A stretch of DNA of 30,745 nt, taken from positions 1 through 30,745 of the IMG/VR virus record IMGVR_UViG_3300042945_001072; one strand, written 5' to 3'. The notes under the pieces were generated by a model, which saw only the letters and a program-made list of their open reading frames with translations, made no database searches and was not told the DNA's origin. This document shows positions 17,089 through 19,584 of the stretch, one piece after another. The stretch comes from a virus. How positions within the stretch are numbered: the stretch's first letter is position 1; each line of letters opens with the position of its first letter. A program made the translations under genes and the position numbers.

Positions 17089-18696
17089 TTATGTCATCGG
17101 TACATTGTACACTGAGTGAGCATAAACAACATAAAAATTATTATGATTTTCTGGATCAATACTTGGAACATTGTTTGCTGGTCCAGTATTTTGACCAGAT
17201 GCTCCTTGTTTTGCGGCAACTTGTGTTCCGCCCATTGGTAATGGAATAATTGTCGGTGCTGGTTCTGGTAAAGGACCAACACTTTCTGCCTTCATTGTTG
17301 CTTCCTGTTTTATTGGAGTTATATCAGCAATGGGAGTCTTTAATGTAGAAGAACTAAATGCATCTTGTAAGTTAATTCCTTCTACACCCATCAACTGAGC
17401 AACATTAATTTCTCCATATTGTGCTGGTTTGCTAAAATCTTGATTTTCAGATTGTGATGCAACATCGGAAGTTTGTTTTCCATCACCCATTAAATTATTA
17501 GATCCAAAAGCAATATTTGTAATTTTGTTTTGTGATGTTTGTGATAGTAAGTTTTTATCTACACCTGGACCACCAAATGCTCCACCACTAAACATTTCAG
17601 TTGACTTATCATAAAATCCTTTGAACAAATCTGTTGCTGGACCATAACTAAAAAATCCAGCAGCGAGAGCAGCGGGAAGTTTAAGAGGACCTGGTGCAAA
17701 TCTTGAGAATAGATTTGCTGCACCTGCTGCCATAGTGGCACCACCAAGATTACCTGCTGCTGCTCTTGCAGGATCTTCTCCTCCAGCAATGTCTAAACCA
17801 GTCCCTAATGCGGCACCAGTAAGTATAGAAGTCAATCCAAATCTGTTTATTCCTTGCCCCGAAACTCTTTGTTCTGCTTCTGCTACTGTTCTTGCTGGTC
17901 CAGCAGGAGGTGGATTTCCACCAGCAGGAGGTGGATTCCCCCCACCACCAGATCTTGAAAATCCAGGAAGAATATTTTTTATTTTAGGTATAATTCTATT
18001 TGCTGCACCTTTAACACCATCAAGAAGTGCTTGAACTGGTCTTAAAAATAATCCAACTGCAACAGCAGTTGTAACCCTAGCAGCAACTCTTGTTAGTATA
18101 TTGAATACAGAAGTTAATCCAAACCTAATTCCAGCATATACTCCACCAATAATGCCAAGATTTTTAATGACACTATTTTTAATTTCTTCTAACTTTTGCC
18201 TATTTCCGTCACCAAGAGCCTTGATAGTCTCTATACCTTGCTGCAATAACCAACCACCCAGAAGAGTGGTAAAAAATTGCATCAAACGAGAAAGAGTAAA
18301 TGATGCTTTCGCTGCAACTTTTTGTACAGGATATACAAGAGCATTTTGTATCTTTCTTTCAATAATACTCTCTTTTCCTTCTCTTAATTGTTGCTCAGCA
18401 AGTCTTCTTTCTTGATCTTGTTCCTGAGCAGTTTGTCTTCTTTCTAATGCAGCACTTTGGATAACATTCCCATAAACATTCTGCATCGCAACGTTTAATG
18501 AGTTAACTTGTTGCGTTAATGCAGATAACTGTTCAGAAACCGTGTTTAGTGCTAATGAGTTTCTTTGTATTAATGATGTTGTAACTGGATCTGGCTGAGC
18601 AGGAGGTGGCGCTGCTGCTGCTCTGAAAGCATCCGCAGACACCGTTTTTCTAGCAACTCTTAATCCTCCCGATAGTGGCGATTTTATCTCAGCCAT
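17089..18696 (-). CDS. Tape-measure candidate / internal tail protein with membrane segments, 535 aa
   Basis: Residues 40-120 form a Gln-rich coiled coil (SEQLSALTQQVNSLNVAMQN). Hydrophobic segments follow at about 136-158 and 181-218 (GIIGGVYAGIRFGLTSVFNI), then a GGGGNPPPAGGNPPPAGPA linker near 251-269 and further Ala/Gly-rich hydrophobic sequence to about 350. Coiled coil plus membrane-active helices is the usual make-up of tail tape-measure proteins, and the position just after the frameshifting chaperone gene is the classic place for one. In T4 the equivalent is gp29, but I see no clear sequence match. The start has an AAGGA Shine-Dalgarno sequence and overlaps the 57-codon chaperone extension by 8 bases. 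Confidence 0.6.
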   Translation of the reverse strand: MAEIKSPLSGGLRVARKTVSADAFRAAAAPPPAQPDPVTTSLIQRNSLALNTVSEQLSALTQQVNSLNVAMQNVYGNVIQSAALERRQTAQEQDQERRLAEQQLREGKESIIERKIQNALVYPVQKVAAKASFTLSRLMQFFTTLLGGWLLQQGIETIKALGDGNRQKLEEIKNSVIKNLGIIGGVYAGIRFGLTSVFNILTRVAARVTTAVAVGLFLRPVQALLDGVKGAANRIIPKIKNILPGFSRSGGGGNPPPAGGNPPPAGPARTVAEAEQRVSGQGINRFGLTSILTGAALGTGLDIAGGEDPARAAAGNLGGATMAAGAANLFSRFAPGPLKLPAALAAGFFSYGPATDLFKGFYDKSTEMFSGGAFGGPGVDKNLLSQTSQNKITNIAFGSNNLMGDGKQTSDVASQSENQDFSKPAQYGEINVAQLMGVEGINLQDAFSSSTLKTPIADITPIKQEATMKAESVGPLPEPAPTIIPLPMGGTQVAAKQGASGQNTGPANNVPSIDPENHNNFYVVYAHSVYNVPMT

Positions 18697-18862
18697 TTAT
18701 TCCTTGTTTTAGATTTTCCTCTTCAATATACTGTTTGAGAAGAGAAAGATAAATTTCTCTCTCCCAAGGTATCATATTTTCTAACTCTGTCAAGCTATAT
18801 TTATGATGTTGCATTAAGGCAAAATTAACCTTGTAGTATGACTCAAGATCTTCGTGAGCCAT
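18689..18862 (-). CDS. Frameshift extension of the gp26-like chaperone (57 codons), T-like
   Basis: This ORF is in the -1 frame relative to the gp26-like gene and overlaps the next gene by 8 bases. From ATG 18860-18862 it reads MAHEDLESYYKVNFALMQHH, then KYSLTELENMIPWEREIYLS and a helical Lys/Glu-rich end. The H-x-Y-S-L-x-E-L-E-x-M-P-W-E-R-E pattern resembles C-terminal parts of tail assembly chaperones, which contact the tape measure. No Shine-Dalgarno sequence precedes the ATG, and the ATG is buried in a 10-bp stem. I therefore infer that it is translated mainly as an extension, giving a fusion of about 298 residues: 238 gp26-like residues, then R-V-S, then these 57. Independent initiation cannot be excluded. 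Confidence 0.7.
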   Translation of the reverse strand: MAHEDLESYYKVNFALMQHHKYSLTELENMIPWEREIYLSLLKQYIEEENLKQGING

Positions 18863-18877
18863 ACTTACCCGAAAAAA
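18836..18877 (-). promoter_or_regulatory. Programmed -1 ribosomal frameshift signal
   Basis: Reading the minus strand, the slippery heptamer T TTT TTC occupies 18877-18871 in the correct X XXY YYZ phase (codons TCT TTT TTC). Six bases follow (GGGTAA, including the zero-frame stop TAA). Then comes a stem GTATGGCTCA / TGAGTCATAC (10 pairs, one G-U) with a 9-base loop, at 18864-18836. Site, spacer and structure have the geometry of known -1 signals. Confidence 0.75.
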
Positions 18878-19584
18878 GAAGTAAGTCCCTCCAATACAAC
18901 TTCACTTTCAACATCGGTTTTTGGATTTTTAACTTTAATAGTATGAGAAAGTTTTGGCATCGTGTCAAAGAAAGTTTCAATTTCTTTAAATTGTTTTGAA
19001 CTCAATTGTTCAATAAATTCTAAAAGTTCTTTTTTAGTACAATCTTTTGCAGACCAAGATTCTTCTTCAGAATAAACCTGTTCAATACAAGAAGCAATAA
19101 GATCAAAAGTTTCTGTTACACCAATTTCAGTTCCAGCAGTGAAATTACTCTTAATAAACTCATCCATTGAAGGATATTTCATTCTTAGGATTAGATTATC
19201 GTCTAGTTTAATATCTCTTGAATGATCATCAGAAACTTGAACTTTAATCTCATCAAGATTGATTAATGTGGGAACCTGAGTAATATTATCATCTGGACAA
19301 GTAATTAAAACTTCTACATCTTCACCAACAGATTTACCACGAATGTTTAGAAAAAGATATTCAATATCAAAAGTAGAAAGTTCTTCTACTTTTACACCTC
19401 TTGTTAAAATGCAAGCAGAAATAACTTCTTTAACTGCGTTTGCAATCTGCTTACTATCTTCACTTTCCATTGCAATAATTAAAACCTTTTCTTCTTTAAC
19501 AAGAAAAGGTCTATATTTAATCGTCTTTTTTGACGAAGGAATTTCCAACTCATAAGTTGGTGTGGAAATTTTGGGTAAAGGCAT
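18865..19584 (-). CDS. 26: gp26-like baseplate hub assembly protein / tail assembly chaperone, 239 aa
   Basis: The protein (MPLPKISTPTYELEIPSSKK, then KYRPFLVKEEKVLIIAMESE) matches my recollection of the Pfam T4_baseplate family, which holds the gp26-type hub assembly proteins of T4-like phages. The remainder alternates acidic helices and strands, with no membrane segment, and ends GLTSFFG. The gene has an AAGGA Shine-Dalgarno sequence and a late promoter at 19611-19617. It sits between the tube-initiator-like gene and the tape-measure candidate, the place of lambda gpG/P2 gpE-type chaperones. The 3' end carries the frameshift signal described separately. The number 26 is by family resemblance; gp51-like function is an alternative. 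Confidence 0.75.
   Translation of the reverse strand: MPLPKISTPTYELEIPSSKKTIKYRPFLVKEEKVLIIAMESEDSKQIANAVKEVISACILTRGVKVEELSTFDIEYLFLNIRGKSVGEDVEVLITCPDDNITQVPTLINLDEIKVQVSDDHSRDIKLDDNLILRMKYPSMDEFIKSNFTAGTEIGVTETFDLIASCIEQVYSEEESWSAKDCTKKELLEFIEQLSSKQFKEIETFFDTMPKLSHTIKVKNPKTDVESEVVLEGLTSFFG

Follow-up and report, generated by a model that had tools for sequence, protein, structure and literature searches.

Organization of the locus

The window analyzed in this study, i.e., the whole 30,745-nucleotide stretch of viral DNA (IMG/VR record IMGVR_UViG_3300042945_001072, positions 1 to 30,745), belongs to a marine T4-like, cyanophage-type myovirus, and all elements of the locus lie on its minus strand. 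They are listed here from upstream to downstream, together with the neighboring genes.

20492-19614, minus strand: tail tube-like ORF (PF23849, phrog_45)
18865-19584, minus strand: gp26-like gene, zero frame, 239 aa, predicted short chaperone, TAC-N (PF12322, E=1.7e-74; phrog_150, E=1.4e-81)
18887-18892, minus strand: GGAGGG, Shine-Dalgarno-like candidate stimulator, 9 nt upstream of the heptamer
18871-18877, minus strand: slippery heptamer T TTT TTC, read from the sequence and kept in phase in all 221 distinct loci compared
18865-18870, minus strand: 6-nt spacer GGGTAA, read from the sequence, containing the zero-frame stop
18836-18864, minus strand: 10-bp hairpin, candidate stimulator
18689-18870, minus strand: putative -1 extension, consisting of an R V S linker and the 57-codon gp51-like C-domain, TAC-C (phrog_634, E=3.3e-27)
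18862-18689, minus strand: the 57-codon ORF itself, in the -1 frame relative to the gp26-like gene
17089-18696, minus strand: 535-aa ORF, tape-measure candidate by position only
17087-15165, minus strand: 640-aa ORF with endolysin-like and M23 peptidase domains (phrog_90; PF01551)
15158-13791, minus strand: tail protein (phrog_350)
13787-11670, minus strand: gp5-like hub protein

The gp26-like gene is matched by 679 phage records. Its upstream neighbor had been named a gp54-like tube initiator in the first-pass annotation, which was a weaker point of that reading, since the ORF matches tail tube families. On the downstream side, the first 8 nt of the 535-aa ORF are shared with the end of the C-domain ORF. 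No tape-measure family was matched by this ORF in the Pfam and PHROG family searches, and it is considered a tape-measure candidate on the ground of its position; in the records of HTVC008M and phiM12, the annotated tape-measure candidates are found two genes downstream. The 535-aa protein is fast-evolving, and the eight phage records that match it do so in the N-terminal part only. A hydrophobic stretch of some 135 aa in it recurs in the 640-aa ORF (27% identity; single comparison, E=7e-4), and the two ORFs are perhaps tandem tape-measure-like paralogs. The 640-aa protein, with its endolysin-like region and M23 domain, adjoins the hub genes.

The junction and its reading frames

In zero-frame codons, the 3' end of the gp26-like gene reads CTT ACT TCT TTT TTC GGG TAA, and the heptamer T TTT TTC sits in the X XXY YYZ phase. 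The hairpin that follows is formed by the arms GTATGGCTCA (18864-18855) and TGAGTCATAC (18845-18836), which make 10 pairs, one G-U among them. Read in the -1 frame, the same region is TTT TTT CGG GTA AGT ATG GCT CAC and runs into the 57-codon ORF, such that the fusion product would consist of 238+3+57 = 298 aa. Re-reading of the sequence bore out the earlier annotation of these elements: its coordinates were all correct, the in-phase heptamer, the 6-nt spacer with its stop and the 10-bp hairpin were all present where they had been placed, and the expected product of about 298 residues agreed with the sum given above. There are 17 in-phase A6/T6 heptamers in the 8854 codons of the likely genes of the window, and that at the junction is the sole one located within the last five codons of its gene; its position is thus more than chance.

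Identity of the two domains

The 57-codon ORF matches phrog_634, the gp51 family, described as 'baseplate hub assembly catalyst'. In phrog_150, the profile of the gp26 family, it matches positions 239-278, just after positions 5-232, which are matched by the gp26-like gene; the profile thus already includes joined proteins. A C-domain profile was then built without T4 and compared with the T4-type proteins, the scores being given in bits; the E-values of this comparison cover four sequences only. This profile matched the C-terminus of T4 gp51 (20.8 bits) and gp51 of Aeromonas phage Aes012 (36.0 bits), with no match to T4 gp26, while the profile of the gp26-like domain matched T4 gp26 at 70.7 bits and gp51 weakly. 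As T4 gp51 carries the C-domain and gp26 lacks it, gp51 corresponds to the long form and gp26 to the short form, encoded by two genes. The earlier proposal that gp26 is a chaperone of the lambda G type was therefore right in outline, with the small ORF now recognized as a gp51-like C-domain of the kind found at the end of T4 gp51.

The AlphaFold model of the 239-aa protein (pLDDT 87.7) matched predicted gp26-type proteins of many phages. Among solved structures the model had no significant match, and a sequence search of solved structures likewise returned none; the listing of HK97 (2ob9) and YqbN (3klu) at E-values of 1.2-2.3 is taken as a hint only.

Conservation of the junction

For comparison, gp26-like loci were gathered by protein similarity and not by the presence of the heptamer. 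They comprised 80 close and 159 more distant loci, to which annotated records of Sinorhizobium, Pelagibacter, Vibrio, Pseudomonas and cyanobacterial phages were added, and removal of duplicates left 221 distinct junctions from assemblies as well as isolates, including phiM12, HTVC008M, nt-1 and P-SSM2. The plus strand of each locus was scanned with a score cut-off, and T4-type loci fell outside the set; the counts below thus cover the gp26-like loci of the frameshift groups, not all T4-like phages, and, the loci being related by descent, they do not represent independent events.

It was indeed found that all 221 junctions contained an in-phase TTTTTT with C, T or A as the next base, and all 221 had the C-domain in the -1 frame. 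This frame was free of stops over 50 codons from the heptamer at each of the 221 loci, whereas the zero and +1 frames were both closed within that distance in all of them. The alignment of the junction across phages, which had been suggested as a check, thus showed heptamer phase and small-ORF frame to be kept throughout; the opposite outcomes were also looked for, and at no locus did the small ORF lie in a frame other than -1, and no heptamer was broken by synonymous changes. The codon usage within the heptamer was equally constrained. The TTT codon was invariant (221/221), and the second Phe codon was TTC in 202 of 216 loci, against a background of 26% TTC among the Phe codons of these genes. 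The residue encoded by the codon before TTT varied (Ser, Asn, Asp, Ala and others), with a third base that was always T. The zero-frame stop was usually found one codon past the heptamer, namely in 194 of the 216 loci with a nearby stop (TTTTTTC at -10).

Five loci that first seemed to be without a heptamer were rejected as exceptions, since their zero-frame stop comes later and the heptamer was found further upstream. In these loci (L203, L206, L208, L226 and L249) the stop lies about eight codons later than usual, which gives the short form another C-terminal tail and leaves the -1 frame intact. It is also to be noted that the Ser codon at -9 before the heptamer codon was AGT in 126 of 149 loci, with a synonymous entropy of 0.87 bits where 2.02 were expected, which could be due to codon-family inheritance or to a further signal.

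Considering that T4 gp51 is a continuous gene with both domains, the small ORF might be the remnant of a formerly continuous gene that has decayed or been misassembled, through a frameshift mutation or a sequencing error. The same split, in the same phase, is however seen in 221 assemblies and isolates, among them the four phages named above, and there is coding constraint in the -1 frame. As the split is conserved across loci, this reading is refuted, and we assign it a negligible probability.

The start codon of the small ORF

Of 216 loci, only 111 have an ATG at the codon annotated as the start, and where it was absent the codon was mostly Leu; even among the 81 closest sequences, ten had CTC, CTA, CTG or TTG in its place. 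In many loci the first ATG is found only within the conserved domain, or there is none at all. Since it is missing in about half of the loci, the ATG is not the conserved entry point of the small ORF. The C-domain is encoded in a shifted frame that can be reached without a start of its own, the -1 frame being open in all loci. Moreover, the three codons between the heptamer and the ATG vary as codons of the -1 frame, as exemplified by the CGN codon of the linker Arg, in which the base entropies are 0.49, 0.68 and 1.82 bits. Judging from the alignment, this is the variation that a fusion would predict and independent initiation would not.

These observations bear directly on the view that the two ORFs are translationally coupled genes, in which ribosomes would reinitiate at the ATG 2 nt past the TAA and produce a free 57-aa gp51-like protein. 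The short distance between stop and ATG in the window, the retention of ATG in the 111 loci, and the separate gp51 gene that public records usually annotate would all fit such coupling. It does not account, however, for the other half of the loci, with mostly Leu at this codon and a first ATG often inside the domain or lacking, nor for the -1 coding constraint that already acts on the codons before the ATG, and it leaves the invariant phase of the heptamer and its codon bias unexplained; in the window, furthermore, the hairpin sequesters the ATG. As the sole explanation, coupling is thus regarded as highly improbable, while reinitiation in addition to frameshifting is possible in those phages that keep the ATG.

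Candidate stimulators

The Shine-Dalgarno-like (SD-like) GGAGGG at 18892-18887 was absent from the earlier reading. In 156 of the 221 loci the heptamer is preceded, at a spacing of exactly 9 nt, by this element in the form (G)GAGGG. Its Glu codon was GAG in 156 of 202 cases (77%), compared to a background of 28%, while the neighboring conserved Glu codon at -8 had 33 GAG versus 94 GAA (26% GAG). By this measure of codon choice, the SD-like element is kept by biased synonymous codons and is under selection, the contrast with the neighboring codons of the same genes being clear. The element lies at too great a distance from the ATG to function in initiation there, and in spacing it is similar to the stimulator of dnaX frameshifting.

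The RNA fold of the junction had an energy of -19.8 kcal/mol (z of -3.2 versus shuffles). Pairing in the hairpin was analyzed within the clade of the window (77 sequences, 73 distinct), where 81.5% of the cells of the 10-bp stem were paired; with the partner strand slid, this figure did not exceed 44.7%. Changes on both sides of the stem were found in 38 cells versus 13.7 in shuffles, none of 500 of which was as high, and the pair at columns 21-35, which ranked first for covariation in the alignment of the clade, occurred as U-A, G-C and A-U. The stem is not retained outside this clade, where different hairpins occur near the same place in some groups and none in others. RNAalifold on all loci together accordingly gave no common structure, as the hairpin is not common to all clades, and the clade-level pair count was used in its place. 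The expectation that the stem would be conserved with compensatory changes thus held within the clade of the window but not in other clades, and, for want of conservation beyond this clade, the hairpin may not be essential. An Rfam search of the junction yielded nothing credible, with two chance-level matches to eukaryotic RNAs. Overall, the comparison suggests that the SD-like GGAGGG and the downstream hairpin probably stimulate the slip.

A homopolymer T run of 6 to 8 is present at every locus, and transcriptional slippage on this run could in principle give mRNAs with a base gained or lost, to be translated normally. Such slippage favors longer runs, whereas most loci have exactly T6 and then a C, and it would need neither the X XXY YYZ phase nor an SD-like element at fixed spacing nor a covarying hairpin. 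We therefore consider slippage of the polymerase to be extremely improbable.

Proposed mechanism

Taken together, the conserved features make it very likely that the locus encodes a frameshifted tail assembly chaperone, in which a -1 slip would yield a 239-aa and a 298-aa form. Most ribosomes would read the gp26-like gene to its stop and produce the short chaperone, TAC-N, of 239 aa. A presumed fraction of the ribosomes would pause at T TTT TTC, slip back by one base and bypass the stop, and the resulting fusion of 298 aa, TAC-NC, would have the gp51-like TAC-C domain at its C-terminus. By analogy with lambda gpG/gpGT, both forms would have a putative chaperone function, coating the tape measure protein and recruiting tail tube subunits. 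In an extended version of this model, the T4-like cyanophages would possess a three-part signal of the dnaX type, made up of the SD-like element at 9 nt, the U6C heptamer and the hairpin, with the heptamer fixed and the hairpin turning over from lineage to lineage, and the clades that keep the ATG would make the free C-domain as a third product by reinitiation; we regard this version as rather unlikely.

Novelty and annotation of the locus

The frameshift trick is well known in phages, which limits the surprise of finding it here. The abstract of Vladimirov, Gautam and Davidson from 2022 reportedly describes frameshifting as a conserved feature of several T4-like groups, with T4 using the separate genes 26 and 51. 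In the PRFect paper (PMC10274946), Vladimirov et al. 2022 is cited for some T4-like phages having separate short and long genes instead of frameshifting, and in the phage Adele paper (PMC12846349) for poly-T stretches as known -1 signals in the TAC-N genes of T4-like phages. The suggestion that this arrangement was new for T4-like cyanophages consequently fails, since the work is cited for both the T4-like chaperone genes and the poly-T frameshift signals. As represented in these citing papers, the idea is a published one, and the present locus is a strongly supported instance of it; what may be new are the SD-like signal upstream and the fact that the hairpin turns over.

None of the annotated records examined joins the gp26-like and gp51-like parts, and the frameshift is annotated in none. 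The C-domain gene (gp51) is missing from the ACG-2014d record, and is truncated to 31 aa in that of P-SSM7 and to 45 aa in that of HTVC008M. If, as the extensive comparative evidence strongly supports, a very abundant marine phage group makes two chaperone forms from one gene, then most public gp26/gp51 annotations in these genomes would be wrong or incomplete, in that they lack the long form and often shorten gp51 or pass over it.

Comparison with known systems

Lambda (gpG/gpGT), P2 (E/E') and HK97 (gp13/14) each make a short and a -1 extended form at a single locus that immediately precedes the tape measure, and the predicted pair of the window, ahead of a tape-measure candidate, would resemble them in this; the slippery sequence of lambda is GGGAAAG. 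The frameshift of the lambda gpG/gpGT tail assembly chaperone is described in PMC5009743. The lambda, P2 and HK97 chaperones differ from the proteins of the window in having no detectable sequence relation to them, and no significant fold match.

With regard to the signal, that of E. coli dnaX consists of an SD-like element about 10 nt upstream, the heptamer, and a hairpin about 6 nt downstream, and this three-part layout is common to the window junction. The differences are that the window heptamer is a run of U, as opposed to A AAA AAG in dnaX, that a hairpin of the window type is replaced or absent in other clades, and that the stimulators at the present locus are candidates.

A parallel in domain content is offered by T4 genes 26 and 51, which encode hub assembly chaperones, proposed to be TAC-N and TAC-NC, and between them contain the same gp26-like domain (PF12322) and C-domain. 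In T4 the short and long forms are two separate genes on opposite strands, whereas the phage of the window would make both from one gene by a -1 slip. Frameshifting here and duplicated genes in T4 would thus represent two genetic solutions to one need, side by side.
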